A DNA stretch of 64,000 bases from Sinohyriopsis cumingii. Its lineage: Eukaryota > Mollusca > Bivalvia > Unionida > Unionidae. Position numbers and translations under genes: made by a program. Below the pieces are notes generated by a model, which worked only from the letters and a program-made list of their open reading frames with translations, did no database searches and had not been told where the DNA came from. Of this stretch, positions 26,708 through 47,225 are shown in pieces. Where the stretch lies: the NCBI GenBank assembly GCA_028554795.2, contig CM068824.1, positions 157,402,789 through 157,466,788 of the forward strand. The letters are read 5' to 3'. Each line of letters opens with the position of its first letter. Positions within the stretch are counted from its first letter, which is position 1.

Positions 26708-27022
26708 AGTAGTGAATGGGGTCACCCTACGTACAATGGGAATTAGCATTACAGACACCCCTGGGTCACTCTACGTACAATGGAAATTTAACATGGCGAA
26801 AAATCGTGGGTCACTCTACGAACAAGGGGAATTTAACATGGCAATAAATCGTGGGTCATTCTACGTACAAGGGGAATTTAACATGGGGAATAGAGTTAAG
26901 GCTTGTTTAGGGATTTTTTTTTTAAAAACAATTTTTTTTTTAAAAAAAAAAAGGGGGTAGGCAATTGAAAGGCTATCTCTTTTCGAGAAATATGGCTGGT
27001 CCTGAAAAGGGCCTTTGGGTTT
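26708..27022 (+). repeat. Left terminal inverted repeat
   Basis: It starts AGTAGTGAATGG and is the reverse complement of 46911-47225 over its full length, with about six substitutions and small homopolymer-length differences. The outer half consists of about four tandem units of 44-45 bp, each starting gggtcactctacgtacaa or similar (26720, 26764, 26809, 26854). The inner part has T/A homopolymers and ends with the histone-like hairpin on the minus strand (26998-27013). Confidence 0.95.
26998..27013 (-). terminator. Histone-type 3' stem-loop in left TIR, after the 27038-27271 gene
   Basis: Minus strand: GGCCCT-TTTC-AGGACC, with one C-A mismatch in the six-bp stem, followed by agcca and then ctcgaaaagagata about 13 nt later. 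It begins about 25 nt beyond the stop of the minus-strand 77-aa gene. It is the partner of the perfect hairpin at 46920-46935. Confidence 0.6.
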
Positions 27023-27037
27023 ATGTTAATGTATTCA

Positions 27038-27271
27038 TTAACATAAAGGGCACCGCATTGGTCTTCTTCTTGTCCTTAGGCTGCGTCTCACTGTTGGCCC
27101 ATAAATCAGCACTCTTTTCAGGCATCCTTGTCTTTCAACGTAGATCCTACGTATCCACAGACTGGTGTTTGTCCTGTGGACAACGGTCCACTTGGATCGG
27201 ACATACATGAGCATGTCCGTCCTAAACATCATGGAAGACACAAGGGTGGATGACTCAACTGTGGTCCACAT
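27038..27271 (-). CDS. Small basic protein of unknown function, 77 aa
   Basis: This is the leftmost gene of the Polinton, read outward. The ATG at 27271 (cttcaagATGtgg) lies 45 nt downstream of a TATA box (tataaata, minus strand, 27316-27323), which supports a real gene with this start. The product begins MWTTVESSTLVSSMMFRTDM. It becomes strongly basic at the C-terminus (RRSLRTRRRPMRCPLC), suggesting nucleic-acid binding or nuclear localisation, although no domain is recognised. The stop is followed within 30 nt by a histone-type stem-loop in the TIR, as for the other terminal genes. It could be an early accessory gene. The function is unknown, and a chance frame is not excluded. Confidence 0.5.
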   Translation of the reverse strand: MWTTVESSTLVSSMMFRTDMLMYVRSKWTVVHRTNTSLWIRRIYVERQGCLKRVLIYGPTVRRSLRTRRRPMRCPLC

Positions 27272-27315
27272 CTTGAAGCGACGAGAACAGGTGAATCAAT
27301 GCAGTGAACTGCGCT

Positions 27316-27323
27316 TATTTATA
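27316..27323 (-). promoter_or_regulatory. TATA box of the leftward 77-aa gene
   Basis: tataaata on the minus strand, 45 nt upstream of the ATG at 27271. TATA-to-ATG spacing is about 45-57 nt for most genes with a clear TATA box in this element. Confidence 0.6.
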
Positions 27324-27421
27324 GGCAGAGGAAGAATTGAAACGGATTGAGTTCATTCACCAATCCGAACACGCGTTACAAAATTCAGTCAGCTCGCATC
27401 CAATCCGAAGAGAGCAGTCTG

Positions 27422-27443
27422 TGACGTCACGTGGTCTATATAG
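27422..27443 (+). promoter_or_regulatory. Promoter with CRE, E-box and TATA
   Basis: A perfect CRE palindrome TGACGTCA (27422-27429) overlaps a CACGTG E-box (27428-27433). A TATATAG box follows at 27437-27443, 48 nt before the ATG at 27491. The cluster suggests response to host signalling or growth factors (inference). Confidence 0.65.
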
Positions 27444-27490
27444 ATTCGCTAGCGCTTGTGTGCAGTCAAATTATGCGACAGTAATTCAAC

Positions 27491-28057
27491 ATGACGGAAA
27501 TTCAGAAAACGATCCATTGGGGTGCACCAGCAGGGGAGACTGCCCAAGGGAACCCGGACTTACTTTCAGAAGAGGTGAATTGGGATTTTGTGGATTTTCT
27601 CTCCTCGCAAGAATTTGTTCCGGAACCTTCGTTACCTTCTTCATTACCGCAAGTGGAGAATTTTGGACAGAGACAGAAAGAAGAATTGGAGAAATTTATA
27701 CAACAACAAAAGGAAGCGGAACAGGCTTTTCTCCTACAGCAACAGCAGCAAGAAGAAGAGGTAAGAAAAAAACAACAGCAAGAAGAAGTAGCAGCAAAGA
27801 AACAAGAGGGTGAAAATCAAACGGTCACGGTACTGTTGGACATTTTAGCGGAGTTAAGAAGTCTGAAACAAATGTATCAGACTTCTTTATCACGACCGAA
27901 GAGAATACGACCTTCCCGAGCTAAACACGTCAACCCTGTGACTAAGCCTACCGTACCACCCTTAGTGATTTCAACCCAATCATCATCAGCATTACGCAGT
28001 CCAGAAGTAGGCCTTGGCCGTGGCAAAGGCTTAAGGCAGTTAAAATTGATTGCTTGA
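27491..28057 (+). CDS. Q/E-rich coiled-coil protein, 188 aa, unknown function
   Basis: The acidic N-terminus (residues 1-55) contains EEVNWDFVDFLSSQEF, which looks like an acidic/aromatic activation or docking segment. Residues about 55-115 are a Q/E/K-rich coiled coil (EQAFLLQQQQQEEEVRKKQQ). Residues about 118-135 form a leucine-rich helix (VTVLLDILAELRSLKQM), and the tail is basic and S/P-rich. The start is chosen because it is the first ATG after the CRE/TATA promoter. The stop is 25 nt upstream of a perfect histone-type stem-loop. An AATAAA also sits just before the stem-loop (28075-28080), so polyadenylation is an alternative. No family is recognised. The layout resembles viral transcriptional regulators, but that is inference only. 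Confidence 0.75.
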   Translation: MTEIQKTIHWGAPAGETAQGNPDLLSEEVNWDFVDFLSSQEFVPEPSLPSSLPQVENFGQRQKEELEKFIQQQKEAEQAFLLQQQQQEEEVRKKQQQEEVAAKKQEGENQTVTVLLDILAELRSLKQMYQTSLSRPKRIRPSRAKHVNPVTKPTVPPLVISTQSSSALRSPEVGLGRGKGLRQLKLIA

Positions 28058-28082
28058 ACTCACCCCTACACCGAAATAAAAA

Positions 28083-28098
28083 GGCCCTTTTCAGGGCC
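28083..28098 (+). terminator. Histone-type 3' stem-loop after the 27491 gene
   Basis: GGCCCT-TTTC-AGGGCC is a perfect 6-bp stem with a 4-nt loop, flanked by aaaaa upstream and acccaca downstream. This matches the replication-dependent histone mRNA 3' element. A purine block (cgaaaagaaa, 28111-28120) lies 12 nt further, where the histone downstream element that pairs with U7 snRNA would be. Confidence 0.75.
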
Positions 28099-28322
28099 AC
28101 CCACATTTCTCGAAAAGAAATACAATTTCAATTTGCCAATAACTCAAAAAAACAACCCACCCATTTTACCCCTATAGTACGTGTCTGTGTATGAGTGCGT
28201 GAGTGTACGTTCTTATTTTAAAATCATAACTCAAAGACACTTACCTTATATCATTCATTAATTTTTCTATGAATATTTACAATCCAATTCACAATTCACA
28301 ACGGAACACTTTAATTAAAAGT

Positions 28323-28817
28323 TCATTGACTTCTTCTTTCTCCTTGTTTAGTCTCTCTGTTTTTGAATTTTTTCACCGTCACACTCTTTTCCTCTTCTTC
28401 CTCCTCGCTTTCTTCCCTTCTTCTTTTCTTCTCCTGTTTCTTTTTCTTCACCTGTCTGCTTTCTTCCTCTGAAAAATCCCTCTCTTCTTCCGAAGAATCC
28501 CTCTCTTCTTCTGAAGAATTCCTTTTTTCTTCTGACTCCTCTTGTTTCTTTTCTGGGCAATCTGGAGACCAATGTCCTTTTTCTTTGCAATAATAACAGG
28601 TATCTTGACTTTTGTCTTTTTTAGCCCCTGTTTTTGTTCTTTTTTGACGGTTTGGACACTCTGAAGACCAATGTCCTTTCTTCTGACAGATATAGCAAGT
28701 ATCTTGACTTTTATCTCGAAAGGAAGGAGAGTAGTCCGTAGGCTGGTCTGAAGAGAATTTTCTAATGACCCCTCGCAAAGCTCTGACGAAACGTTCGATT
28801 TGGTTAGTCTCTTCCAT
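28323..28817 (-). CDS. CCHC zinc-knuckle protein, 164 aa
   Basis: Two zinc knuckles of the form CX2CX4HX4C are present: CYICQKKGHWSSEC and CYYCKEKGHWSPDC. They are separated by a basic linker. An E/S-rich acidic tail with repeated SSEEERD units follows, and then a K/R-rich end. Knuckles of this type bind single-stranded nucleic acid in retroviral nucleocapsids and CNBP-like proteins. The start at 28817 is the first ATG after a TATA box (28871-28880, minus strand). The longer open frame upstream begins only at a GTG and spans the promoter. The gene is divergent from the polymerase, with back-to-back TATA boxes. It may be captured, but the source is not identifiable. Confidence 0.8.
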   Translation of the reverse strand: MEETNQIERFVRALRGVIRKFSSDQPTDYSPSFRDKSQDTCYICQKKGHWSSECPNRQKRTKTGAKKDKSQDTCYYCKEKGHWSPDCPEKKQEESEEKRNSSEEERDSSEEERDFSEEESRQVKKKKQEKKRRREESEEEEEEKSVTVKKFKNRETKQGERRSQ

Positions 28818-28870
28818 CGTTGTGCTCAGCTTGAGAGTGAAATTAATAGTGAAAGGACAAGACACACACC

Positions 28871-28903
28871 CTTTTATATACGCTGGTCTGCCATGACTAT
28901 AAA
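28871..28903. promoter_or_regulatory. Bidirectional promoter between zinc-knuckle and polymerase genes
   Basis: The minus-strand TATA (tatataaaag, 28871-28880) lies 54 nt from the ATG at 28817. The plus-strand TATA (tataaa, 28898-28903) lies 49 nt before the polymerase ATG at 28952. The two cores are 17 bp apart. Confidence 0.7.
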
Positions 28904-28951
28904 TTAGTCTATGGTGTTTAAACTTGAGTCATTTGACGTTTTGCACTCAAG

Positions 28952-31900
28952 ATGAAACGATCCTATTCATTTGAGAAGAAAGAAGAAGAAGAAAGTAAGA
29001 GGCAGAAACGTGATCTATCGCCTCGTACCAGGACTGAAATCTTGGCACAAATTCATGCCAGTGATTTTGAAGAGGACATGAGTGAACCAGAATTCGAACC
29101 CTCTAAACGAAGTTCACCACCCTTAGTCAACCCTGAAAAATACTATTCCATTCGAGAGACGGAAAAGCGCTCCTCTAGAAAATTTAGAACCACGGCTTAC
29201 AAATACACGGTGAAGTTTAAAGATTTCAAGGCTGAAGTGCCGTTAGAGAAAGCAGAAGTGTTCATCACTGGGGTGTGGGATTCTTTGCTCACCGCACTCA
29301 AGCGACAATGTCAACCCAAAGAAGACGATCACTTGAGACTTTCCATACAACACGACGGTTTGAAATCCCCTGTTTGGATCGAGTTTAGCACCCCTGCAGA
29401 ATTGACTGCTTCCAAAGTCATGGACAAGATTCAACACGTACAACAATCTAATGATCAGTTTGACATCACCGATGGTAAAGCCACACTGGACATGACCCAC
29501 GTCTCTCATCCTCAAGGGACTGGACGCAAAAAGATGTTATTGGTGGACGACCTTCGCAACACCAAAACGAGTCTCGTCCGAATTAACAACCCTCATGACC
29601 AGATGTGTTTAGCCCGTGCCATCGTGGTGGGACGAACCTATGTCAACAAGAACGACACGGTACAATGGAAAGGAACCTGGAACACTATTCAACGTTCCGA
29701 TCGAGCCAAACAACGAAACGAAGCAGAACTCCTTTTGCAACAAGCCGGACTGTCCAAAGATACACCCTGTGGCATTCCTGAGATGCAAAAATTACAAGAT
29801 GTCCTAGCTCCACGATACACCTTGAAAGTGCACCCTCAAGAAATGCGCGGGCCTCTGTTGTTTCGAGGCCAAGAATTTAAGGACGGAAAATACGTTCACC
29901 TTTATCATCACGATGAACATTTCGATACCATTACCAGTATCACTGGATTCCTAGGATATGTTTATTATTGTGAGAAATGTGATTATGGTTATAACAATCG
30001 AGAGCAACACAAACATTGTGGATGGAAATGCTCAGGATGTTTGGCCTCTCCACCCTGTCTGAGTGAAGAACCAGTGCCTTGTTCAACTTGTCTGCGCACG
30101 TTTGTCAGCCCTACCTGTTACCAACAACACTTGAAGACGCAAGGTTCACAGAAGAAATGCGCTTGTCAACTGCTGAGATTGTGCCCTACGTGTAGACAAG
30201 GCATACGTACCAATAGTACCAAGGCACACGTATGTTCAGGAAAGAAAAAATGTCACATTTGTCACCACATCGTGGACTTGGAAAACCAATGTTACGTGCA
30301 AAAATACCAACCCCCACCAGAGAAAGAGGACGGTCACAAGAAGAAAGGCAATTTCATCTTTTTCGATTTCGAATGCATGCAAGAGACCGGCATTCACATT
30401 CCTAATTTCTGCGTGGCTCATCGAGCGTGCGAGAAGTGCATTCAAGAACCTATCTTCAGTCATTGCCCTCACTGCAGCAAGATTCCTGGAGGGCGTGAAA
30501 AAATCTTTCGGGGACCCAACACGTTAGCCGATTTTGCCCAATGGGTTTTAGACCCCATCGACAAGACGTGGAGCCAAGAGGACATCGAACGTTACGGAGA
30601 TTGTCATCGTCATGCCACGGTGATGGCTCTCAATTTCTCCGGATACGATGGACAGTTTCTTTTGAGGTACTATACGGAACAAGGCACCGAACGTCCTAAA
30701 GTGACTTTGAACGGAGCCAAAATCATTTTCATGCAAGTGGGACAAGTACAGTTTAAAGATTCGATGAGCTATTTGGCCATGCCTTTGAGTCGAATGCCTA
30801 AAACGTTTGGAATGACAGAAATGGCTAAAGGGTACTTTCCACACTTTTTCAATACGGAAGCCAATCAACACGCTGTTCTACCCCATTTGCCTGAGGCTCA
30901 CTATTACGACCCCGACAACATGCGTACCGAACAACGAGAAGCTTTCTACGCTTGGTACCAGGCTCACGCCTCGGACCCTTTCGACTTTCACGAAGAAATG
31001 CTAAAGTATTGTCGTTCCGACGTGGACATTTTACGACGTTGCTGTGGAAAATTTCGAGAACTGTTCATGGAACACGGAGGGGTCGATCCTTTGAAAGAAG
31101 CTTGCACCATTGCCAAAGCGTGTTCTTTAGTGTACCGCCAACGATTCATGCCTGAAAACACCGTGGCTGTCATCAGTCCTCAAACGACCCACTATGTCAA
31201 GCGTCAATACTCGGTCAAAGCCCTACGTTGGTTACATTACTTGTGCGACAAGGAAGACAAATGGATTCAGCATGCCCGCAACGGAGGAGGCGAAAAGACC
31301 ATCGGAACGTATTCGGTCGATGGCTGGGACTTAGAAAACCCCAAGATCGTGTACGAGTTTAACGGTTGCTTATTTCACGGATGTCCCGTCTGTTACCCTG
31401 ACCGTGGTACTAGAAATCAGTTTTTGCAACGAACCATGGAAGACTTGTACCAGGACACTTGTCAGCGACGCCTAAAGTTGGAACAGGAAGGATACCAAGT
31501 GGTGGAAATGTGGGAACACGAGTACGCTCACCGTATGAAAACCGATCCCGAGTTTAAACGTGCCGTGGAAAGTTACAAGCTGATGGACCCCCTAAACCCG
31601 AGGGATAGTTTGTACGGAGGAAGGACCAATGCCACCTGTTTGCTGTACCAAGCCGACGAAGAGAAAGGAGAAGAAATCAAATACTTGGACGTGTGTTCGT
31701 TGTATCCTTACGTGTGCAAATATTGTCCCTTTCCTGCAGGGTACCCACAATTGTTCACGGAACACATCGACCTGAAAAACATTCGATAATACGAAGGCTT
31801 GATCAAGTGTAAAGTTTTGCCTCCCACGAACCTATACCATCCCGTCTTACCTCACCATTGTCAAGGCAAACTGATGTTTCCATTGTGCCGTACTTGTGCC

Positions 31901-32992
31901 GAAACGTGCAACCAGGACCAACCTTGTCAGCACAGCCAGGAAGAACGGGCCTTGACGGGAACCTGGGTCAGCGTAGAATTGTTCAAGGCTCTGGACATGG
32001 GATACCAACTGTTAGAAGTGTACGAAATTTGCCACTTTCCCAAGACACATCAGTACCACAAGGGTGATCCCAGTCAGAAAGGCATTTTCGCCGACTACGT
32101 GGATGCCTTTTTGAAACTGAAGCAAGAAGCCAGCGGCTATCCTTCCTGGTGTCACACTCCCGAAGACCAAATACAATTCAAAGAGAAATACTACGAACAA
32201 GAAGGCATCACTTTAGACCACATCGAGAAAAACGAAGGCAGACGGTCGTTTACCAAAGTGATGTTAAATTGCTTGAGGGGTAAAATGGCACAACGTCCGT
32301 GTTTACCCAAGACGGAATATTTGACAGAACCTTCCCGCTACTTCCAGATGATTCACGACAAAACCAAATACATGAAACACGTGGATGTCGTTCGAGAGGA
32401 TTTGATCTTGGTCAATTACGAAGAAGATCTGGACTTTGTACAAGACGACCCTTTTGGAAATGTCATCATTGCGGCTTACGTGACAGCCCATGCTCGCTTA
32501 AAATTGTACGAAGCTTTAGAACTGTTAGGGGAACGCGTCCTGTACTTTGACACGGACAGTTGCATTTACATCCATCACCCGATTCAACATCACCCTGACA
32601 TCGAAGGAGACCGTTTAGGAGCCTGGACAGACGAGCATCCCGACGACAAGATTCTAAGTTTCGTCAGTGGCGGTCCCAAAAATTACGGCTACGAATACCG
32701 GGACAAACAAGGAGAAGTGCACACGACGTGCAAAGTGAAAGGACTGACTCTGAATTATCGTACCAGTCCAGTGGTCAACTTTGGGGTATTGAAAGAAGCC
32801 TTGCAATCGGGAGAGGATGGAAACTTTAAAGTGACCACCTATCAACCGAACAAGATTGTACGTTTACCCACTCACCACATCGTCAGTCGGCCCCTAGAAA
32901 AAGTCTATCAAATCGTGTACCAGAAGCGAGTGAGACTTCTCAATCATTTCACCTTACCGTATGGACATGTTGGTATAAAACATTGGTTGTAA
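28952..32992 (+). pseudogene. polB: Protein-primed family B DNA polymerase, full length but with one in-frame stop
   Basis: This is the replicative polymerase of the Polinton. Codon numbering runs from the ATG at 28952 (about 1346 codons). A Cys-rich zinc-ribbon region lies at about 340-440. The 3'-5' exonuclease has motifs DFE (FIFFDFECMQ, about 468), NFSGYDGQFL (about 560) and YCRSDVDIL (about 686). A GTYSVDGWD...YEFNGCLFHGC segment (about 787-815) resembles the nuclease-like insertion of Polinton polymerases. Palm motif A is LDVCSLYP (about 912), motif B KVMLNCLRGK (about 1102) and motif C YFDTDS (about 1199). A TAA at 31787-31789, between motifs A and B, interrupts an otherwise uninterrupted frame. 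Without readthrough the product lacks motifs B and C. There is no frameshift, so the inactivating change is recent. No other polymerase copy in the window could replace it. Confidence 0.95.
32974..32980 (+). promoter_or_regulatory. TATA box of the BIR gene
   Basis: TATAAAA inside the last codons of the polymerase, 37 nt before the ATG at 33017. Confidence 0.55.
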
Positions 32993-33016
32993 GAGGATAG
33001 TTACCCTACCAGAAAG

Positions 33017-33475
33017 ATGACTTCGCCACAGCAAGAATCGAGTGAGAAACCCGATGAGAACTCCAAGTTCAAACCCTACCATTTTTCAGTCTTCTTACCT
33101 GACTATTGTGATTGTGCCCGTCGATTGGACACGTTTCAGAAATGGCCTACGGATAGGGAAGGATTACCTTCTTCGCATGTTTTAGCTAGAACAGGATTTG
33201 TCTACTTGGGACCTGAGTCAGGATTGGGATACGAGGTACAGTGTTTCGCTTGCCGACTGATGTTACGAATGGATCTATGTATCTATAAAGATTCAGCTAT
33301 TCTGGAACATACTCGATGGTCTCCGCACTGCCCTTACCTTTCTATGGCCTTTCCACCCATCACACTACGGTACAATGTTGACGGTACCTTAGAGACGGTA
33401 CCTTCCAGAACAAGACATAAAAAACGTAAAAAAGGAAAGATGTACAAGCTGCAGACTGCATTGCGACTAGTATAA
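33017..33475 (+). CDS. BIR-domain (IAP-like) protein, 152 aa
   Basis: A single BIR domain spans about residues 35-110. RRLDTFQKWP is at the start, LARTGFVYLG in the middle, and the zinc ligands are C76 and C79 (CFAC), H98 (LEH) and C105 (SPHC). The spacing CX2CX18HX6C fits the family. The tryptophan normally found a few residues after the second cysteine is replaced (LMLRMDL), so peptide binding may differ. A basic tail (RHKKRKKGK, about 133-141) follows. BIR proteins of baculoviruses and animals block caspases or act in ubiquitin pathways. There is no RING domain here, so simple binding or decoy action is more likely (inference). The gene sits directly after polB with its own TATA box and is intact. 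Confidence 0.88.
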   Translation: MTSPQQESSEKPDENSKFKPYHFSVFLPDYCDCARRLDTFQKWPTDREGLPSSHVLARTGFVYLGPESGLGYEVQCFACRLMLRMDLCIYKDSAILEHTRWSPHCPYLSMAFPPITLRYNVDGTLETVPSRTRHKKRKKGKMYKLQTALRLV

Positions 33476-33478
33476 AAA
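33471..33478 (+). promoter_or_regulatory. TATA box before the 33536 frame
   Basis: TATAAAAA, overlapping the stop codon of the BIR gene and about 60 nt before the ATG at 33536. Confidence 0.6.
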
Positions 33479-33535
33479 GGGGGGCTATGGTCAAGACCGA
33501 TAGTTCATTGTGACTACCAAGACCGAGCGAACAAG

Positions 33536-33841: not shown

Positions 33842-33855
33842 GCAAACTCCTGTTC

Positions 33856-34167: not shown

Positions 34168-34192
34168 AGTAACTTCTTACCATAATCTGTTC

Positions 34193-34648
34193 ATGGATAC
34201 TTTACAAGAGAACATTCGTGCTTTGCCTGTGGAGTTGAGAGAACGCATTTACCGAGAGCTGGTCAAAATACAAGTGAAACGTAAAGAACAATTGCATCCG
34301 TTACGTCACCGGTGTTTGAACCACTGGTACCTGAAGGCTATACAAGGATTGATTCAATTGAAAGTGTTCCATCGGACAGACATTGATCAACGATCCTCTA
34401 GTTTTAAAAAGGATTGGTTTGGTATGGACGATTCTACCTACATCATTGTAAACGTACTGCATCGAATTCCAGAGGAAGAGTTAACGAATTACCAACATCT
34501 TGAACACAATGTCAACTTGGTGAAAGAGGAAACTTCTGAACGAATTGTAATGTGTAGATTAGTGACTAAACGATTTAAATTCGACACTGAAGTAACACCA
34601 TGTTTGTGCAAAGAGTACATTTCTTGTGTCAGACCAAAGAGGATTTAG
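34193..34648 (+). CDS. F-box-like family protein, copy 1, 151 aa
   Basis: The N-terminus (residues 1-35: MDTLQENIRALPVELRERIY then RELVKIQVKRK) has the LPxELrerIyreL pattern of an F-box-like helix-turn-helix. The rest is helical with a conserved EEELTNYQHL block (about 95-105) and a C-terminal half rich in aromatic residues and cysteine. The same N-terminus is repeated at 34661 and 34896. F-box proteins link targets to SCF ubiquitin ligases, and viruses often carry them. The match covers only the short helical core, so the function is inferred. No TATA box is evident. Confidence 0.6.
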   Translation: MDTLQENIRALPVELRERIYRELVKIQVKRKEQLHPLRHRCLNHWYLKAIQGLIQLKVFHRTDIDQRSSSFKKDWFGMDDSTYIIVNVLHRIPEEELTNYQHLEHNVNLVKEETSERIVMCRLVTKRFKFDTEVTPCLCKEYISCVRPKRI

Positions 34649-34660
34649 TATGACCTATTC

Positions 34661-34933
34661 GTGGATACTTTGCTAGAGAACATTCGTGCTTTGCCTGTGG
34701 AGTTGAGAGAACGCATTTACCGAGAACTGATCAAAATACAAGTGAAACGCAAACTCAAAGTGATTCATCCGTTTTTAAATTATGCTATGTTCCAAAGTAC
34801 AAGAAGACTGATTATGAGTGGATATTACATTAGGCACAAAGTTAAACGAGGCTATTGGCCACCACCCAACGATTCCAAAAACAGTGTATATACTTATGGA
34901 TACTTTACAAGAGAACATTTTGGGCTTGCCTGA
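34661..34933 (+). pseudogene. F-box-like family, copy 2, truncated
   Basis: The frame repeats copy 1 (ENIRALPVELRERIYRELIK) but its start codon is GTG where copies 1 and 3 have ATG. It runs out after 90 codons in unrelated residues and overlaps the start of copy 3. It is probably a decayed tandem duplicate. Confidence 0.6.
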
Positions 34934-35420
34934 GGAGTTGAGAGAAAGGATTTACCGAGAGCTGGTCAAAATACAAGTGAAACGTAAAGAACAATTGCAT
35001 CCGTTACGTCACCAGATCTTTAACCACTGGTACCTGAATGGTATAAGAGGACTGATTCGTCAGAAATTTTTTCAGTGGTCAGACCTTGTTGAACACTTCC
35101 AGTTTGTGAATGATGATGGACCAGACGTTCGTAATTTTGGTTACTTCGAGATTCACTTACTGCAACGTATTGAGGAAGACGAGTTAAAGGATTACCAACA
35201 TTTGTTACATGCAATCTGCTTAGAAAAAGACGAAACATCTAGACAAACTCTGACGTTTCAGTTACAGTATGTAACATTTAAATTCCCTACTGGAGAACGA
35301 ACGTGTTTGGTTAGAAATTACCTTTATTGCTTCCGAAACAAAGACACTATAAAATCAAGTTGCCATGCCACGGATTATGTCACATATCATTCAACAGATT
35401 CCGTGGAAGGAACTCAATGA
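34896..35420 (+). CDS. F-box-like family protein, copy 3, 174 aa
   Basis: Begins MDTLQENILGLPEELRERIY. The first 100 or so bp are almost identical at DNA level to copy 1 (34193) and copy 2. The middle and C-terminal halves (EEDELKDYQHLLHAI, FKFPTGERTC) align with copy 1 but have diverged. The duplicated block with diverged tails suggests tandem duplication followed by selection or gene conversion at the N-terminus. An upstream in-frame ATG at 34818 lies in the copy 2 remnant. The start at 34896 matches the family. Confidence 0.6.
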   Translation: MDTLQENILGLPEELRERIYRELVKIQVKRKEQLHPLRHQIFNHWYLNGIRGLIRQKFFQWSDLVEHFQFVNDDGPDVRNFGYFEIHLLQRIEEDELKDYQHLLHAICLEKDETSRQTLTFQLQYVTFKFPTGERTCLVRNYLYCFRNKDTIKSSCHATDYVTYHSTDSVEGTQ

Positions 35421-35579: not shown

Positions 35580-36132
35580 ATGGCCTTAAATGGTCACGAA
35601 AAACTCCTTTTGCTCAAAGCCTTGCGTTTTCATCTGGATACTTCTCGACCTCAACAGGAAAAAAAGATTCGTCAACTTTTAGCTACCCAAGACGTGTATG
35701 ACGATGTGTGTGTAGCTTGTGACTTACACCCCCATTGGACAGATGTTCGTGATTGGAAAAAAGGGGGTTTTGAGGCTTGGACCCAAGAAGTGGCCCAGTA
35801 TGCACAAGAGTTGTTCAAGGAAAAAAGTTACTTTTCAACCTGTGTTAGTGACGGTGCCAGAAGAACCCGTCACCGAGAACAACCACTCGTTTCAGGACAG
35901 GACTGTCATGGACATGCCTGAAAGGTCATTCCGGGAGGACACTTGTGTGACAATACCTCATGTAGAGACTGTAAGAACATTACACACTGTCCCTAGGACA
36001 TCTTGGTTACCCAAAACATGTTGTACAGAGACTTGTTTATATTCCACTTTGATCGTTTTAATGTGTTTTTTATTCCTGTACATCACTATTTGGGTTTTAT
36101 GTATTTTTGTCTTTCGTGTTGTTCATATTTGA
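35580..36132 (+). pseudogene. Putative single-pass membrane protein split by a frame change at an A-run
   Basis: The first frame (35580-35921, from MALNGHEKLLLLKALRFHLD) is helical and ends soon after a run of six A (35821-35826). The second frame, in phase from 35821 to the stop at 36132, continues with VTFQPVLVTVPEEPV and ends in a hydrophobic segment (STLIVLMCFLFLYITIWVL) that would span a membrane. An AATAAA (36140-36145) follows the second stop. The arrangement suggests one gene of about 180 codons with a one-base insertion in the A-run. No family is recognised. Confidence 0.5.
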
Positions 36133-36139
36133 AACATTC

Positions 36140-37013: not shown

Positions 37014-37964
37014 ATGACGTCCCTTCAGTCGCATCTTCCCGTCAAATTGATTCGTGCCTTGTATGGCATCAGTCGAGAAAAAAATCCACAAACACGAGCT
37101 CGTGTCTTAGAAGCTAGTCTCAAAGAAGTCTTACGATGGTTCACGGTGACGACACGTCAAATACTCCAAGGAATCATTCAGATTCCTCATCAAACCAAAC
37201 GCTTTTTCGATCGAAACAAAGTCGCTTTGGTCCAACTGGCCGATCCCCGCATCGACACTCAAACCAAAAAACAAATCATTTTGAAACCTGGAGGGAGCGG
37301 TACTCTAGGAGGGGTCATCATTCGCTCTCTCTTAAGATGGGATCCTAATGCCCCCAAAGTTATACCCAAGACAAAAGTCCAACGAAGTCCCAAGAAGAAA
37401 AAGTAAAAGACCAGGTCCCCAAGGAGAACTTCTCCAGTGGCGGGACCCTCCTCTTACCAGACACCACCCCGGAAAAAGAAAAGAAGCCCCCAGAAAAAGA
37501 AACAGAGAAAAAGTCCCCAGAAAAAGAAAAGTCCACAGAAGAAAACTAGTCGCAAGAGAGGCACTTAGGCCAGGACGCAACCTTACACTCGCAAACCACG
37601 ACCTGCCACGGCAGTGACTGCGTCTCCGGCATCCTCACGTTTATCCACTTCTCCGTTGATGACACCCAGAACTGAAGAGTACTTGGAGACGTTGATTACA
37701 CCAAGAACTTCTCCGTTGATGACCCCCAAAAGAACGTCCCCAGTGGCAGGACCCTCCAATTTAGTGGCAGTGGCTGCTGCTCACAAAGTACCTTCTCCTA
37801 AAATCAAAGTTCAAGAAAGATCGCAAATGTTACAAAGTTTACTGGATTTGTCCAAGCAAGAACTGGCTCGATTTAGTCCGTTACGTACCCCTGCACGACG
37901 TGTCATGCCTGTCCTCAAACTGATACGACGTAAAGACAATCAGTGGCGACGCGTTCCAGTATAA
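37014..37964 (+). pseudogene. Basic core-type virion protein, one frame broken by two stops
   Basis: The N-terminal domain (residues 1-130) has HLPVKLIRALYGISREKN and ends in a glycine-rich ILKPGGSGTLGGVII motif. The tail is highly basic and S/P/K-rich. TAA at 37404-37406 and TAG at 37566-37568 interrupt it, but the frame is continuous. A TSPVAGPS element occurs between the two stops and again beyond the second (near 37735), showing that both parts belonged to one protein of about 316 codons. The N-terminal part resembles the small conserved Polinton protein with a K-rich, glycine-rich C-terminus. The tail looks like a DNA-condensing core protein. If only the first part is translated, it is a 130-aa protein. 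Confidence 0.7.
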
Positions 37965-39089: not shown

Positions 39090-39106
39090 CACACAAACAC
39101 AAAAAA

Positions 39107-41550: not shown

Positions 41551-41553
41551 GTC

Positions 41554-41970
41554 ATGTATCCAGTGTACCGAGGGGTTGCTCGACAGAGAGGACACGGTTT
41601 AGGAGATATGTTAAAATCGGCCTTTCGTTCCGTGGCCCCGGTGTTGAAACCGATGGTGACACGCGGATTGCACGCCTTGAAAGATGCGGCACTGACACAA
41701 GGCAAAGAATTTCTCCAAAATGTCATCATCGACAAACAAAACCCTAAAGAAGCCTTCATGAGGGCAGGCAAAAATGTCTTGCTGCAAACGGGCAAAGACA
41801 TTTTGGGTCACCGAGAAACACCTATAAATGCCCTGCACGCATCCGAGTCAGGCATTCAGCAAGGACAAGGCAGAAAGAGACGACGAAGAAAATACCCTTT
41901 CACCAGACTTCAAGCGAGAAAGGCCAAGAAAAGAAGAACCGTTCGAGACTTAGACGTTTTCGATTATTGA
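41554..41970 (+). CDS. Conserved small Polinton virion protein, 138 aa
   Basis: MYPVYRGVARQRGHGLGDML is followed by a helical FRSVAPVLKPMVTRGLHAL segment (about 25-45), an acidic-to-neutral middle and a strongly basic tail (GRKRRRRKYPF, KAKKRRTVRD). The YRG-xxxxRGHGxGxxLxxxFRSxxPxLK start is a widely conserved motif of a Polinton gene lying between the two capsid genes. It is compared in the literature with adenoviral pVI-like minor proteins (my recollection). It lies four nt after the penton frame. A TATA box (41458-41464) sits about 95 nt upstream. Confidence 0.8.
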   Translation: MYPVYRGVARQRGHGLGDMLKSAFRSVAPVLKPMVTRGLHALKDAALTQGKEFLQNVIIDKQNPKEAFMRAGKNVLLQTGKDILGHRETPINALHASESGIQQGQGRKRRRRKYPFTRLQARKAKKRRTVRDLDVFDY

Positions 41971-41983
41971 GACACAGAGAAAA

Positions 41984-43285
41984 ATGATGCACCGAGAATC
42001 TTGCGCTTGCTCCAAGACGGAACTGGACCTGTTTGCCATGCCCCCCACGATGATGACCATGCAAGAATCCCAATGGGTGGAATTTCACCCCGTCTCCTCA
42101 CTGACCGATTCCGCTCCCATCGAGTTCGAAATCAAAGGACAGCCCGAAGATTACATCGATCTGAATAGCAGTTACTTGTACTTGAAAGTCAAAGTTCTAG
42201 ATAAGGATAATGGTGGAGTAGATGACACTGAGAATATAGCCCCCGTCAACAATTTCATGCATTCCTTGTTCAGCTCAGTGGACTTGTACTTGAATAACAA
42301 ACTGGTCAGCAGCAGCATGGATACTTACCCTTACCGTGCCTACCTAGAAAATCTCTTGACGTACGGAATAGATGCCAAGAACACTCATCTCAATGCTTGT
42401 GTGCTATGGGAACCTGACGAAGCGACCAAGTTTGACATAATAGATAAAGACAATGACGGCTTTGAGGAAAGACGAAACAAAATCCTAGATGGACAGAGTT
42501 TAGAACTGATGGATCGTTTGCATTTGGACATGTGGTTGCAAGAGAAATATTTGCTGAACGGGGTAAATATCCACTTGAGACTGAATCGCAGCAGTGCCGC
42601 TTTCCATTTGTTGGCTGATACTGCTGCTGACACTCCTAAAAGCAAAATCGAGGAGGCCAAACTCTACGTACGACGCGTGGAAGTGTTACCCAAAGTGGGA
42701 AACGACATCAGTCAGACGTTGAGCAGAACGACCGCCAAGTATCCGATACGTCGCGTGGAAGTGAAAACCTTCACCATTCCCAAGGGACAGCGATCCATGA
42801 TCGAAGATCATCTGTTCCAAGGACAGTTACCCAAACGTTTAATCCTTGGTATGGTTGAGAATTCAGCCTTCAACGGAGCCTTCGCTGAAAATCCTTTCCA
42901 CTTTCGACACTTTGACGTGTCCAAGATCGAGGTCAGTCGCGATGGCAAGACCTTGTGTACACGACCTTTCGAACCTGACTTTACCAAGAAGAATTACTTG
43001 AGATCGTACTTGTCCCTGTACGAAGCCACGGGCCAGTTAGGAACCAACACCAGTCACGGCATTACGTACGAGGATTATGCAGGAGGCTATGCTTTGTGGG
43101 CTTTCGATTTCACTCCTGACCAAGGCAGCGACGAGGGACATTTCCACCCTATAAAATTCGGCCAGATTCGTGTGGAACTTCAGCTTATTAATGCTCTACC
43201 ACACACGGTGAACGTCATCCTGTATGCCGAATTTGATAATACGATAGAAATCAACAGTTTGAGAGAAGTCATTCTAGATTACTAG
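41984..43285 (+). CDS. mcp: Major capsid protein, double jelly roll, 433 aa
   Basis: It forms the hexon-like capsomers of the Polinton particle. Diagnostic blocks in order are LDLFAMPP (about 14-21), QWVEFHPVSSLTDSAPIEF (about 30-48), YIDLNSSYLYLKVKV (about 57-71), PVNNFMHSLFSSVDLYLN (about 86-103), TYPYRAYLENLLTYG (about 112-126), NGAFAENPFHFRHFD (about 298-312), ITYEDYAGGYALWAFDFTPD (about 356-375) and ALPHTVNVILYAEFDN (about 408-423). The length is normal for the family. The frame is intact, with no stop or shift, although neighbouring genes are broken. Confidence 0.95.
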   Translation: MMHRESCACSKTELDLFAMPPTMMTMQESQWVEFHPVSSLTDSAPIEFEIKGQPEDYIDLNSSYLYLKVKVLDKDNGGVDDTENIAPVNNFMHSLFSSVDLYLNNKLVSSSMDTYPYRAYLENLLTYGIDAKNTHLNACVLWEPDEATKFDIIDKDNDGFEERRNKILDGQSLELMDRLHLDMWLQEKYLLNGVNIHLRLNRSSAAFHLLADTAADTPKSKIEEAKLYVRRVEVLPKVGNDISQTLSRTTAKYPIRRVEVKTFTIPKGQRSMIEDHLFQGQLPKRLILGMVENSAFNGAFAENPFHFRHFDVSKIEVSRDGKTLCTRPFEPDFTKKNYLRSYLSLYEATGQLGTNTSHGITYEDYAGGYALWAFDFTPDQGSDEGHFHPIKFGQIRVELQLINALPHTVNVILYAEFDNTIEINSLREVILDY

Positions 43286-43290
43286 AAGCC

Positions 43291-43779
43291 ATGGAAGACT
43301 GTTATCCCTCTTTACCTAGTGAAGAAACTTTGGACATGAAATGTGAGGAGACTGTGGAAGAAGAAGAAGAAGTGATCATGATGAAGTCAAGATGGCCAGA
43401 ACAAGAAGCCCATTTAGTCTCCTGTTTTGCCAAACACTTGGTGGAAAAAATGACGGAATTGATCAAGAAAAATTGTCATGGATGTCAAAACGATCATCCC
43501 AGTCAAATTCAACACGATAAATGCCTGATGTTGAGTCAAGAAGAAAAATTGGACGAGTATCTGGACGAAGCTTGGAGTCTCATCTCGAACAAAGACGTGT
43601 TGCATCAGTGGTATAAAGACTTGCGTGAACATTCATGTCCACCATTAACCACTCAAGAGATCCATCGTATCGAAGCTCTCCTGAATCAGAGTGAGGAAAC
43701 AGAACGAATAACCGTTTATTCGTCAGACATTTTCAAGCAAAAAGTCAGGATCGAATTGACAACTTATTATTACCTGTGA
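43291..43779 (+). CDS. Conserved Polinton protein with C-x2-C...HPSQ...H-x-C motif, 162 aa
   Basis: An acidic N-terminus (EETVEEEEEV) is followed by a helical middle. A small Cys/His cluster, CHGCQNDHPSQIQHDKCL (about 62-79), may bind zinc. The C-terminal half is helical and acidic. The CxGCxxDHPSQxxHxCLM pattern recurs in Polinton and adintovirus-like genomes next to the capsid or protease genes, from memory of the family. The function is unknown. The gene sits six nt after the major capsid gene and is probably co-expressed with it. Confidence 0.7.
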   Translation: MEDCYPSLPSEETLDMKCEETVEEEEEVIMMKSRWPEQEAHLVSCFAKHLVEKMTELIKKNCHGCQNDHPSQIQHDKCLMLSQEEKLDEYLDEAWSLISNKDVLHQWYKDLREHSCPPLTTQEIHRIEALLNQSEETERITVYSSDIFKQKVRIELTTYYYL

Positions 43780-43804
43780 AGAAGAAAAAAGCACACACAA
43801 ATCA

Positions 43805-44353
43805 ATGGATACCTGGGAACTTTATTACCTTTTGAACCACAGTTCGTATACGGCTTCTTGGAATCCTGTCGTCTGTGCTAAAGATGAACTCCCTCATCGC
43901 AAACCTAAAGACCATCAAGCTTACGTGATCAACATGGACGACAGTCATCTCCCAGGAACCCACTGGGTAGCCGTTTACTTTCCTCAAGAAGGATGTGTGG
44001 AATATTTCGATTCGTACGGATTGCCCCCTTTGGAAGACGATATCATCGACTTTATGAGAAGAAATGCTCAAACCACCCGATTCAATAATGTGAAATTACA
44101 AGGCACAGATTCCTTGGTGTGTGGACAGTACTGTGTGTATTTTCTGCATCATCGCAGCCTGGGCTATTCCTTAGAACATTTAGTGACTCATTTTGATCCT
44201 CGTTCTTCTTCAAGAAATGATGTGAAAGTAGATCGATGGTTTTGTGACCATTATGCTTATCTTTTGTCTCAAGCTAGGAAACGTAGTGTCCATCAATGGC
44301 CTAATGATTTTCAACAGTGGAAATCACAACGTTGTCAGCCCTGTTTAAAGTAG
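43805..44353 (+). CDS. Adenain-like maturation cysteine protease, 182 aa
   Basis: The catalytic set is visible: H53 (GTHWVAVYF), D69 (EYFDSYG), oxyanion Q99 (KLQGTDS) and nucleophile C106 (LVCGQYCVYF). The Q-to-C spacing of seven matches adenovirus protease. It belongs to the Ulp1/adenain (C5/C48) superfamily and would cleave virion precursor proteins. The frame is intact and of usual length. An AATAAA at 44463-44468 may end its transcript. A decayed homologue is recognisable at 60470-60860. Confidence 0.95.
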   Translation: MDTWELYYLLNHSSYTASWNPVVCAKDELPHRKPKDHQAYVINMDDSHLPGTHWVAVYFPQEGCVEYFDSYGLPPLEDDIIDFMRRNAQTTRFNNVKLQGTDSLVCGQYCVYFLHHRSLGYSLEHLVTHFDPRSSSRNDVKVDRWFCDHYAYLLSQARKRSVHQWPNDFQQWKSQRCQPCLK

Positions 44354-44592
44354 ACTGTCAATTGCCAAAAAATGTTAGTGATTTGAAAAAATTGTTTGAT
44401 GTTATATTGTTGGATTATTGTTAAAAATGTTAGAGTTGTTGTTTAGTGTTAAGTGATTTTTGAATAAAAATGTTGTGTTTTGAAAAAAATGCCTTTGTCT
44501 TTTGTTTAGCTATAAGAATGTTGGATTGATGCTCTTTCATTTCTTACTATCCCTCTCATGACACTCATTGAACGTTGCGGCTCGAAAACCGT
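44354..44592 (+). other. AT-rich spacer with poly(A) signal
   Basis: Non-coding. AATAAA at 44463-44468 is 110 nt after the protease stop. The first of the duplicated promoter motifs of the right arm begins at 44593. Confidence 0.6.
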
Positions 44593-44633
44593 GTGGGGGA
44601 TGTTTTCCTTCACGTCCGCGCTTTGACTTTAAG
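44593..44633 (+). promoter_or_regulatory. Cassette promoter 1 (gggggatgttttccttcacg motif)
   Basis: The motif gggggatgttttccttcacg followed by tccgcgcttt and a weak TATA (tttaag, 44627-44633) lies 55 nt before the ATG at 44688. Near-identical copies precede the 45546 and 46298 genes. Confidence 0.6.
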
Positions 44634-44687
44634 AACCGGGGTTGTTTCCAGTCTAACCATCCATTGTCGACTCATCCTCCTAAGAAG

Positions 44688-45059
44688 ATGTGCTCCAAAC
44701 TAGCTAAGCTCAACGAAGCCTACGTGAATTTGCATAGGGTCAGACACAGTCTGATACCGAAGCCAGAAGAAATAGAGAATGTGAGAATGTTAAAAATCAC
44801 TGAAGACCTGATAGAAGAGCTCTTCAGAGAAGAAATGAACAGGGAAAAAGAAGAATGGACAGAGAAGTACAGACTTCAGAGACAGCAGCAACAGCAGCAA
44901 CAGCAGCAACAACAACAACAACAGCAGCAGCAACCTGAAGCTGACAGAGGCTTTGTCGATTGTCGTATCGACACCAAAGAGTTCTTCTTCTCTTTTCGAA
45001 GAAGCAGACCTATCGCCAGAAAGTCTATCCTCAGAGGACATCGCATTCTTAGAAACTAA
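44688..45059 (+). CDS. Coiled-coil protein of right-arm cassette 1, 123 aa
   Basis: Begins MCSKLAKLNEAYVNLHRVRH. A charged helix (LIEELFREEMNREKEEW) leads into a polyglutamine run of 19 (CAG/CAA codons, about 44883-44932 with one arginine interruption before it) and an acidic/aromatic tail. An earlier in-frame ATG (44568) lies upstream of the duplicated promoter motif, so 44688 is preferred. It shares its N-terminal pattern (SKLxxL...HLxxxR) with the 45546 gene. The stop is 27 nt before a histone-type stem-loop. The function is unknown. Confidence 0.65.
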   Translation: MCSKLAKLNEAYVNLHRVRHSLIPKPEEIENVRMLKITEDLIEELFREEMNREKEEWTEKYRLQRQQQQQQQQQQQQQQQQQPEADRGFVDCRIDTKEFFFSFRRSRPIARKSILRGHRILRN

Positions 45060-45086
45060 AACAGAATGCCATAGCAAACACAAAAC

Positions 45087-45102
45087 AGCCCTTTTCAGGG
45101 CT
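45087..45102 (+). terminator. Histone-type 3' stem-loop after cassette 1
   Basis: AGCCCT-TTTC-AGGGCT, with 6-bp complementary stem, followed by acccca and, 11 nt on, agaaaagaaata. Confidence 0.7.
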
Positions 45103-45404
45103 ACCCCAATACTCTAGAAAAGAAATAACTATTAATTTGCCAATGTGTGTAGGTAGAGTAGTGTGAATATAAACACTAACTCTTTTATAAAAAATGTGAG
45201 GGTATGTGTTAGAGTGTTTGTAAGTGTTAACGTAAGTTGGTGTGGATAGTAGATTAATATGATGTTTTTCTTGGTGTTTGAGGTGTATATTTGGGGTTAG
45301 ATTGGATTGCTTTGCGTATGTAAATAGTCTATTGAAGTGATTCATGAAAAATTTTTTACCATAGTAATGGGTAGTATAAAAATGTGAGTGAGTGTTTCTT
45401 TTAG

Positions 45405-45495
45405 GTCCGCGCGTTGTTTGGTCATGATCTAGGTAAGATCAATTTTATGTTCTTAGGGGGATGTTTTCCATCACTTCCGCGCTTTCAGTATAAAT
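45405..45495 (+). promoter_or_regulatory. Cassette promoter 2
   Basis: It contains a tccgcgcgttgt element, a GATCT-aggta-AGATC inverted repeat, the gggggatgttttccatcac motif and a TATA box (45489-45495). The TATA box is 51 nt before the ATG at 45546. It is nearly identical to 46157-46249. Confidence 0.65.
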
Positions 45496-45545
45496 TGAAA
45501 CTCGCTCGGCAGTCTAGCTACCCTTGTTGATTGATCAACACAAGA

Positions 45546-45794
45546 ATGAATAGCAGAATAAGCAAACTTCTTGAACTCCAGATACATCTGGAATATGCCA
45601 GGCGCCTGTTAAATGAACTGGCCGCGGAGGCTATAGTAGAAGAGGAAAGAATAAAGAAGGAAGAGGAGGAGAGAAGACAGAGGGAAGAGGAGGAAAAGAA
45701 AATAGAAGAGAGGATGTCGTACAATATTCCCGAAACAGAGGATTGGGTGTTGAAGCGAATCATCCTCCCTCTGCGCTCCCCAGAAGAAAGGTGA
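45546..45794 (+). CDS. Coiled-coil protein of right-arm cassette 2, 82 aa
   Basis: MNSRISKLLELQIHLEYARR begins a continuous charged coiled coil (IVEEERIKKEEEERRQREEE). A short tail (YNIPETEDWVLKRIILPLRS) follows. The start is the first ATG after the TATA box. A histone-type stem-loop lies 94 nt downstream, after a poly-A tract. It is a paralogue of the 44688 gene by context and N-terminal pattern. The function is unknown. Confidence 0.6.
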   Translation: MNSRISKLLELQIHLEYARRLLNELAAEAIVEEERIKKEEEERRQREEEEKKIEERMSYNIPETEDWVLKRIILPLRSPEER

Positions 45795-45887
45795 AAGGAG
45801 ACTGGGGAAGAAGATGCGTGTGTGGCGCCAGGCCAGGAAGGTGCAACCATTAGACAGGTGCATCTAGAGTTGAAAAAAAAAAAAAAC

Positions 45888-45903
45888 AGCCCTTTTAAGG
45901 GCT
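45888..45903 (+). terminator. Histone-type 3' stem-loop after cassette 2
   Basis: AGCCCT-TTTA-AGGGCT, followed by accca and a caagaaaagaaataa purine block. Confidence 0.65.
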
Positions 45904-46138
45904 ACCCAATACTCAAGAAAAGAAATAACCATCTATTTGCCAATTTGTGTAGGTAGAGTAGTGTGAATATAAACACTGACTCTTTTTTAAAAGTGGGAGT
46001 GTATGTGTTTGTGTGTTAGTGTTTGTGTTTGTAACGGTTCACGTAAGTTAGTGTGAATAGTAGATTATGGGTTTCTTTATTGTTTCTTAGCGTATGTGGA
46101 GAGTATAGTCAGGGTTTTTATTATATGAAATGAGAAAG

Positions 46139-46249
46139 TAGGGGGATATTTTCCTTCACGTCCGCGCGTTGTTAGGTCATGATCTAGGTAAGATCAATTT
46201 TATGTTTCAGGGGGATGTTTTCCTTCACGTCCGCACTTTCAGTATAAAA
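46139..46249 (+). promoter_or_regulatory. Cassette promoter 3 (motif present twice)
   Basis: gggggatattttccttcacg at 46141 and gggggatgttttccttcacg at about 46210 flank the GATCT-aggta-AGATC inverted repeat. TATAAAA at 46243-46249 is 49 nt before the ATG at 46298. Confidence 0.65.
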
Positions 46250-46297
46250 CTAACAGTGTTGGCCATTGGAGCCCATTCTACGGAATAAGCAAACAAG

Positions 46298-46896
46298 ATG
46301 ATGCCAGCAGCTTCAGCTTTATACAACGATCTTATGGAAAGTTGGTATTGGATGGTGGATGGATTGAGTGTAGCAGAAAGGGTTGAAAAGGAATGGAGGT
46401 ATGCAGTGACAAAAGACTTCGTCTCAAAACAAGTAACCAGCCTCCACTTATCCGTCAATATTGTAAAAGAAATGATAGAGGATGAGGAGAAGAGAATCAG
46501 AGGTTTAATTAACCTACCGTATGTGAAAGTGGGTAAGATAAAAGAAGCGATAGTTCATGTGACGAGTGCAAGGTGCTTTCTAGAAGACATTGTAGAATGG
46601 ACAGATTGGTGTTTCGCGAAGTGGGGGTTAGAAAAACTTAAGAAAGCGGAAGAAGTAATGAGGAATGTGCTGACCGAAGAGGTCAAGAAGATCAAAGAAA
46701 AGTGGTCAAAGGAAAGAAAAGAAGAAGAAAATAGAAAAAAAAGGATGAACTAGAAAAATTGAACACAAACTGGATGAAAATCCAAGAGAAGTTCCGGGCC
46801 ATGGGCCACCCGGACTGGCTGCCGGAAACAGAAAAGAAGAAGAAGAAAGGAATGATGGACACAATAAGAGGATGGTGGAAGAAGTTAAGAAGTTAA
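46298..46896 (+). CDS. Coiled-coil protein of right-arm cassette 3, C-terminus in a shifted frame
   Basis: The first frame (46298-46753, 151 aa) is helical: MMPAASALYNDLMESWYWMV, then an amphipathic middle and a K/E-rich end. It meets a run of eight A (46735-46742). The frame one base back continues with coiled-coil-like residues (KLNTNWMKIQEKFRAMG) to a TAA at 46894-46896. That stop is 23 nt before the stem-loop, the spacing seen in other terminal genes, so the longer product is probably the ancestral one. The zero frame reads A|AAA|AAA at the run, a heptamer that can support -1 slippage. A simple indel is equally possible. The function is unknown. Confidence 0.6.
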
Positions 46897-46910
46897 AAGA
46901 AGAAGAAGAA

Positions 46911-47225
46911 AAACCCAAAGGCCCTTTTCAGGGCCAGCCATATTTCTCGAAAAGAGATAGCCTTTCAATTGCCTACCCCTTTTTTTTTTTAAAAAAAATT
47001 GTTTTAAAAAAAAAAAAAATCCCTAAACAAGCCTTAACTCTATTCCCCATGTTAAATTCCCTTTGTACGTAGAGTGACCCACGATTTATTGCCATGTTAA
47101 ATTCCCCTTGTACGTAGAGTGACCCACGATTTTTCGCCATGTTAAATTTCCATTGTACGTAGAGTGACCCAGGGGTGTCTGTAATGCTAATTCCCATTGT
47201 ACGTAGGGTGACCCCATTCACTAGT
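46911..47225 (-). repeat. Right terminal inverted repeat
   Basis: Reverse complement of 26708-27022. It ends ...CCATTCACTAGT. The terminal bases differ from the left end at one position (second base). Confidence 0.95.
46920..46935 (+). terminator. Histone-type 3' stem-loop in right TIR
   Basis: GGCCCT-TTTC-AGGGCC perfect hairpin preceded by cccaaa and followed by agcca and, about 12 nt later, cgaaaagagata. It is part of the TIR, so both ends of the element carry this outward-facing processing signal. Confidence 0.75.

Follow-up and report, generated by a model that had tools for sequence, protein, structure and literature searches.

The stretch of the bivalve Sinohyriopsis cumingii genome analyzed here (64,000 nucleotides of contig CM068824.1, positions 157,402,789 to 157,466,788 of the forward strand, hereafter the window) revealed a Polinton (Maverick) element in which five hairpins, each with a purine block downstream, follow the outer genes. 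Their sequence makes it very probable (about 0.85) that the five are the host's kind of replication-dependent histone 3′ signal and are processed by the histone machinery. To our knowledge, stem-loop 3′ ends have been treated as a private mark of replication-dependent histone genes. The part of PMC5706932 concerned with histone 3′ processing describes SLBP on the stem-loop and the U7 small nuclear ribonucleoprotein (snRNP) on the purine block, with cleavage between the two. The signals were scored with the Rfam model RF00032 (gathering score, 34 bits) and with R1, a covariance model built solely from the 3′ ends of the host H1, H2A, H2B, H3, and H4 genes. The five genes, taken from the table of open reading frames (ORFs) together with matches in other copies of the element (for A1, an alignment of copies), and their signals are as follows.

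26973–27018, minus strand: signal behind the left-end gene; stem-loop 26998–27013 with one mismatch; RF00032, 25.9 bits; R1, 41.1 bits
27038–27271, minus strand: left-end gene, 77 amino acids, pI 11.6
27491–28057, plus strand: gene C1, 188 amino acids
28078–28123, plus strand: signal behind C1; stem-loop 28083–28098; RF00032, 41.2 bits; R1, 55.7 bits
44688–45059, plus strand: gene A1, 123 amino acids
45082–45128, plus strand: signal behind A1; stem-loop 45087–45102; RF00032, 29.3 bits; R1, 54.1 bits
45546–45794, plus strand: gene A2, 82 amino acids
45883–45928, plus strand: signal behind A2; stem-loop 45888–45903; RF00032, 31.5 bits; R1, 52.8 bits
46298–46753, plus strand: gene A3, 151 amino acids in the window copy
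46915–46960, plus strand: signal at the right end, behind A3; stem-loop 46920–46935; RF00032, 35.6 bits; R1, 47.7 bits

All five hairpins reported in an earlier note on this DNA were found at the same positions, and the RF00032 search proposed there gave significant matches at every one of them. The matches behind C1 (28078–28122, 41.2 bits) and at the right end (46915–46960, 35.6 bits) lie above the gathering score, the match behind A1 spans 45082–45126, and no match beyond the five sites was obtained up to an E value of 5 in 26000–48000. The six-base pair stem that had been described is perfectly paired in four of the five, with the left stem (26998–27013 on the minus strand, GGCCCTTTTCAGGACC) containing a single internal mismatch. 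The purine block, previously placed 11–14 nucleotides past the stem, was measured from the start of GAAAAGA at 13–14 nucleotides. A distance of about 25 nucleotides from stop codon to stem, claimed for four of the genes, holds in the window copy for three of the five (24, 25, and 27 nucleotides for the left-end gene, C1, and A1 by the ORF table) and fails for A3, whose ORF ends at 46753, 166 nucleotides upstream of the hairpin; in copy L004 the ORF homologous to A3 ends 21 nucleotides before the hairpin. The hairpin behind A2 is indeed far from its stop, at 93 nucleotides by the ORF table (94 in the note). The two outermost hairpins are located inside the arms of the terminal inverted repeats (TIRs), which are 95% complementary, and are therefore one sequence present twice, behind two different genes. 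A loose pattern of stem-loop plus [AG]AAAAGA occurs five times in the window, as compared with 0.01 times per 64 kb of Markov-simulated sequence (100 simulations). Downstream of the purine block there is also a conserved AATT(T)GCC (28130–28139, 45134–45143, and 46966–46973), present in most of the copies inspected.

The host histone genes form tandem repeats of ∼8.27 kb, as judged from the spacing of search matches, and in 10-kb pieces of these H3, H4, H2B, H2A, and H1 each end in a stem-loop signal of this kind, the H2B end consisting of GGCCCTTTTCAGGGCC, 13 nucleotides, and GAAAAGA. The host stem is GGCCCT in four of the five genes and GGTCCT/AGGACC in H1, the purine block is CTAGAAAAGA in four of the five and CCCGAAAAGG in H2A (GAAAAGG), and the spacing from the stem to GAAAAG(A/G) is 13–14 nucleotides in all five. 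The Polinton signals share with the replication-dependent histone mRNA 3′ end (RF00032) the 6-base pair stem, the 4-nucleotide UUU(C/A) loop, the A-rich 5′ flank, and GAAAAGA 13–14 nucleotides further on, but differ in that they follow non-histone genes of a virus-like element. Over the 64-kb window R1 scored the Polinton sites at 55.7, 54.1, 52.8, 47.7, and 41.1 bits, with the next of the 15 matches listed at 14.3 bits, and its own training ends at 56–65 bits. The comparison with host histone genes that the earlier note had suggested thus came out in its favor, as stem, loop, spacing, and purine block are alike and R1 recognizes all five sites. The outer stem pair is A-U at A1 and A2 as compared with G-C in the five host histone ends, and the flanks of the Polinton signals differ from those of every host histone gene; the signals are therefore near the host's own kind, yet copies of no single host histone end. 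The named records closest to the host H1 are from Mytilus and oysters, and the portion of PMC6210712 dealing with the bivalve Lucina describes histone genes with a stem-loop and, in some, also purine-rich elements.

The signals recur across the 2.9-Gb genome. A genome search in which RF00032 scoring was applied to the best candidates only yielded at least 75 scored places, all over the cut-off, and each of the 28 of 75 that were inspected (L001–L008 and L010–L029) matches genes of the window Polinton; one bacterial control matched, below the cut-off. When the signals for which a locus had been fetched are excluded, intact signals stand behind C1 (8 of 9 cases), the left-end gene (6 of 7), A1 (4 of 4), and A2 (1 of 1), but not behind A3 (0 of 1), the CCHC gene (0 of 6 rows from 5 loci), the candidate protease gene PRO (0 of 1), or the gene for the major capsid protein (MCP; 0 of 1). 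A sample drawn independently of the hairpins, comprising 1 kb downstream of every fifth of 97 capsid copies (20 copies; 91–100% identity), carried the signal pattern behind the place of A1 in 19 of 20 copies, and R1 reached at least 42 bits in the stretch after MCP in all 20. In copy L089 A1 is not recognizable and the stem is a paired variant, AGCTCT/AGAGCT.

Within related copies, in which the earlier note had wanted the hairpins sought, they are constrained as well as recurrent. The window was aligned with 19 of the 20 sampled copies (L089 was left out because A1 is not recognizable), and gaps were set aside, so that a base lost in copy L078 is uncounted. The stem-loop and purine block contain no non-consensus cell among 479. 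By comparison, third codon positions of A1 have 52 of 1579 (p = 1e-6 versus the signal) and the 3′ flank has 179 of 3030 (p = 4e-12 versus the signal), these p values being guides only because the copies are related; for first and second codon positions of A1 the counts are 40 of 1578 and 25 of 1579, respectively. Three of the six stem pairs vary on both sides, with 99% of cells paired, in a set of 17 signals (5 host and 12 element rows) that was picked after the variants had been seen and leaves out the mismatched left signal. The genome, counting the host histone genes, contains 54,887 exact matches to the motif GCCCTTTTNAGGGC, 13–19 nucleotides, GAAAAGA, as compared with 0 for the reversed control; among the first 100 places listed, 55 fall in 11 complete sets of five signals in the order and orientation of the element. 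At five per element, 54,887 motifs would amount to approximately ten thousand copies or pieces, which suggests a single Polinton family of that size and looks unusually many. For Mercenaria, a table in PMC8905726 lists 7,091 Maverick copies. A first look at the host histone search gave 662 candidates, or ∼1.2% of the motifs if each carries one (a rough bound), and histone genes probably supply a small share of the total.

The right-hand genes also share upstream sequence with host histone genes, a finding beyond the earlier note. The elements concerned are a 23-base pair box, GATGTTTTCC(A/T)TCACGTCCGCGC, and a 21-mer.

44599–44621, plus strand: histone-promoter box before A1, one base (T for A) off the host H2B box
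45395–45415, plus strand: 21-mer TTTCTTTTAGGTCCGCGCGTT before A2, identical to a word in the host H4 upstream region
45460–45482, plus strand: histone-promoter box before A2, one mismatch
46145–46167, plus strand: histone-promoter box 1 before A3, one mismatch
46214–46236, plus strand: histone-promoter box 2 before A3, one mismatch

The box has four sites in the window with at most one mismatch (0 expected), all of them 60–155 nucleotides upstream of A1–A3, and a search allowing up to three mismatches found none before the left-end gene or C1. In its form with A or T at the variable position (W), the box is present without mismatch at host H2B, with one mismatch at H1, and as a reversed copy with four at H2A, so that boxes are shared with the host histone promoters (H2B, H1, and H4 upstream regions, the last through the 21-mer). 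The arrangement differs from that of the host promoters in that A3 has two boxes and the left-end gene and C1 have none, and that the box would drive A1–A3. Besides the hairpin, the words of at least 15 letters shared between the element and the histone repeat are the 21-mer and two others, including an 18-letter word at 37386 that has no obvious meaning; the control sequences shared none (20.5 kb to the left of the element) or two simple-sequence words only (16.7 kb to the right). Among the capsid-sampled stretches that reach far enough, 17 of 18 have the box before A1 with up to four substitutions (L081 is the miss, L080 is too short, and L089 lacks A1), and a second box, by position at the A2 promoter, is found in 19 of the 20 copies under the same limit. 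The H2B form of the 23-mer has 6,101 exact copies in the genome, host H2B genes included, as compared with 0 for the reversed control. The core of the box, ACGTCCGC, resembles a site for the histone H4 factor HINFP (HiNF-P); literature searches did not yield this motif. The part of PMC5706932 on H4 promoters has HiNF-P and NPAT acting there. Judged by sequence, A1, A2, and A3 share a putative promoter box of host histone genes that the left-end gene and C1 do not, and with both box and stem-loop these three right-hand genes therefore resemble complete histone-type genes. The presence of the box before three of the five genes offers independent support for a possible S-phase component.

In the proposed mechanism, the stem-loop would be bound by host SLBP and the GAAAAGA block recognized by base pairing with the U7 snRNP; cleavage between the two by the histone cleavage complex would then leave messages without poly(A) for the left-end gene and C1 at one end of the element and for A1, A2, and A3 at the other. 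Through the box, A1–A3 would be switched on alongside the histone genes around S phase, and the benefit may be that the outer genes are made during active host replication by a route independent of poly(A). It is somewhat probable that the Polinton has gene blocks under the host histone program at both ends, with a histone promoter box in front and an SLBP/U7 3′ end behind, that the family has multiplied to the point of owning nearly all of the histone-type 3′ signals in the genome, and that its outer genes are part of the S-phase histone regulon, possibly assembling at the histone locus body. The pattern suggests that the element could run part of its program on the host DNA-replication clock. 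If true, a mobile element with the histone 3′ mark and a histone promoter box would demonstrate that the histone regulon is open to takeover and would give a hint at the cell-cycle timing of Polinton activity in an animal; it would also be a natural experiment on the sequence that suffices for histone-type processing and on the response of a cell to SLBP/U7 sites added by the tens of thousands.

The interpretation of the hairpins as histone 3′ processing signals, first made in the earlier note, is supported at the level of sequence by RF00032, the host-trained model, recurrence, constraint, and the box; the likeness to host signals, the fixed positions, the recurrence, and the constraint are observed. 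A number of results weigh against it. Three of the five sites score below the RF00032 gathering score (31.5, 29.3, and 25.9 bits; E values of 1.4e-5, 9.3e-5, and 1.8e-3), the left stem has its internal mismatch, the stem behind A1 is one base short in copy L078, and the right-end signal in 10 sampled copies was clear in seven, weak in one (20.7 bits), and absent from the stretch in two. U7 RNA is short and variable. A search with RF00066 matched neither the host nor any control genome; a U7 pattern had 62 matches in the host as compared with 82 for its reversed control, and the 20 of 62 candidates inspected included none with a U7-like 3′ hairpin, the best RF00066 score being 21 of 34 bits (14 of the 20) and some pattern matches resembling integrase genes by eye. 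The SLBP RNA-binding domain likewise had no host match when searched for without regard to introns, and no control matched in that search either. These U7 and SLBP negatives say little because no control matched, the SLBP search ignores introns, and U7 varies. Poly(A) signals are divided in their bearing. No AATAAA or ATTAAA lies between the stop codon and the next gene or element end for the left-end gene, A1, A2, or A3, and PRO is followed by AATAAA at 44463; AATAAA or ATTAAA also follows the CCHC gene and an ORF at 35743. Also on the unfavorable side, C1 has AATAAA at 28075, just before the hairpin, and ATTAAA at 28314, and several core genes, among them those for MCP and the integrase, lack a nearby AATAAA of their own. 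The split between outer and core genes is a tendency, because these other core genes have no poly(A) signal close behind. The signal was, in addition, not found in pieces of four distant Polintons.

The signals could instead be functionless passengers, pieces of the histone repeat that recombination brought into the element. The 23-base pair box and 21-mer common to the histone repeat and the element make capture at some point plausible, but the signals follow Polinton genes, in most cases closely, and share the strand of the gene in every case, their flanks are unlike every host histone gene, and 11 complete five-signal sets are present among the first 100 places listed; moreover, the stem-loop and purine block are unchanged while their neighbors vary, and because of this constraint the explanation is already disfavored and quite unlikely. 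A chance origin was also considered and is ruled out by the simulation, the reversed-pattern controls, and the host-trained model.

Mimivirus and its virophage follow a hairpin rule for 3′ ends, and Polintons are related to virophages. That kinship, seen here in capsid matches, and the position of the hairpins after genes would fit a generic viral hairpin 3′ end of this type, with polyadenylation at the hairpin, but the downstream element is that of histones at histone spacing, the host-trained model finds these sites alone above noise, and no such hairpin stands behind MCP or PRO, the latter having AATAAA; such an origin is extremely improbable. It is very unlikely that the hairpins work in DNA, in TIR recognition, replication, or packaging, with their histone likeness arising by convergence: two of the five are inside TIRs, as this would have it, but three are internal, orientation is set by the upstream gene, and we know of no DNA role for a purine block at histone spacing. 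The excess of 54,887 exact motifs over 662 candidates in the first look at the histone search would suit a main role as a sponge for SLBP and U7, upsetting the histone supply of the host, in place of a role in forming the message ends of the element itself; positions behind genes and the boxes upstream point to gene expression, and a sponge as the chief function is hardly credible.

The preferred interpretation, processing of the outer messages as histone-type 3′ ends, concerns genes that are themselves unlike histones. Pfam gave no histone match for the left-end gene, C1, A1, or A3, the four scanned, and on this basis none of these appears to encode a histone. With a pI of 11.6 and 21% Lys plus Arg, the left-end protein is strongly basic and possibly binds nucleic acids. 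Among the 20 C1 homologues in the protein database, one has 95% identity and the rest 60–71%, and the PHROG match of A1 covers its low-complexity part.

The remaining features of the element, including its 6-base pair target-site duplication (TSD), are listed below.

26708–47225, no strand assigned: Polinton (Maverick) element, 20,518 bp; TIRs, TSD, DNA polymerase B, rve integrase plus chromodomain, and A32-like ATPase by Pfam, capsid fold
26702–26707 and 47226–47231: TSD AATGCG, 6 bp, directly flanking the Polinton
26710–27027, no strand assigned: left TIR arm, 95% complementary to the right arm
46906–47223, no strand assigned: right TIR arm, 95% complementary to the left arm
28952–32992, plus strand: DNA polymerase B, interrupted in the window copy and divided between two ORFs, each with PF03175
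36215–36958, plus strand: A32-like packaging ATPase, PF04665
39107–40405, plus strand: RVE integrase with chromodomain, PF00665 and PF00385
41984–43285, plus strand: MCP, from an AlphaFold2 model and Foldseek matches
43805–44353, plus strand: candidate cysteine protease (PRO), weakly adenovirus-protease-like, PF00770 with an E value of 0.079, under its cut-off

Polintons carry a 6-base pair target duplication, and the element is a Polinton, with DNA polymerase B, RVE integrase, packaging ATPase, TIRs (318-nucleotide arms, 95% complementary), and 6-base pair duplication all present. The polymerase is split into two ORFs (28952–31789 and 31874–32992), and the window insertion is therefore probably inactive; capsid frames are without stops in many other copies. 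The AlphaFold2 model of MCP (predicted local distance difference test score, 78) matched the capsids of PBCV-1, an iridovirus, Sputnik, and mavirus in Foldseek, and there was no PDB match by sequence. The protein is thus modeled as a major capsid protein resembling such capsids, which are of the double-jelly-roll kind. Named capsid homologues among the 120 matches listed come from Mercenaria, Crassostrea, Ostrea, Saccostrea, Littorina, and Batillaria, together with one symbiont metagenome-assembled genome (MAG); with the H1 records, these names point to a molluscan genome, most likely that of a bivalve.

A scan of bacterial and archaeal genomes revealed four distant Polintons in MAG contigs, with capsid identities of 26–44%, sampled as pieces of 8–12 kb (L030, L032, and L033) and as 21 kb of a 32-kb contig (L031). 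The window element is like other Polintons in its DNA polymerase B, chromodomain integrase, A32-like ATPase, viral capsid fold, TIRs, and 6-base pair TSD, but has histone-type gene ends, which these pieces lack. The expectation that related elements would have the hairpins therefore holds for copies of the same family and not for the distant pieces, which points to a lineage trait rather than a general Polinton trait; as far as the sampled pieces go, histone-type ends look like a trait of one Polinton lineage. Searches of IMG/VR with MCP, with a profile of MCP, and with one of C1 found no relatives, and the exact hairpin and box patterns had no match there; a looser hairpin pattern matched four contigs, all without the purine block, which were taken for chance or terminators. 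Titles and the starts of abstracts listed by searches of the open-access literature contained no account of histone-type ends in Polintons. The non-coding RNA scan reported in PMC12220804 for a collection of Polinton-like viruses and virophages counts six histone 3′ stem-loops, a like RNA element, but the section concerned gives a bare count and does not treat the genes around them, any downstream element, the signals of the host, or what the count might mean. The contig L031, from a Bathymodiolus symbiont MAG, has a weak twister-P1-like match at 11734–11798 (28.9 bits; cut-off, 67.2).

Elsewhere in the window, a protein with a BIR (inhibitor-of-apoptosis) domain is encoded at 33017–33475, behind the polymerase, and a short gene without a Pfam match is duplicated at 34193–34391 and 34896–35094 (84% DNA identity over 199 nucleotides). 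A tandem array with ∼39-nucleotide spacing occupies 63589–63997, at the end of the window.

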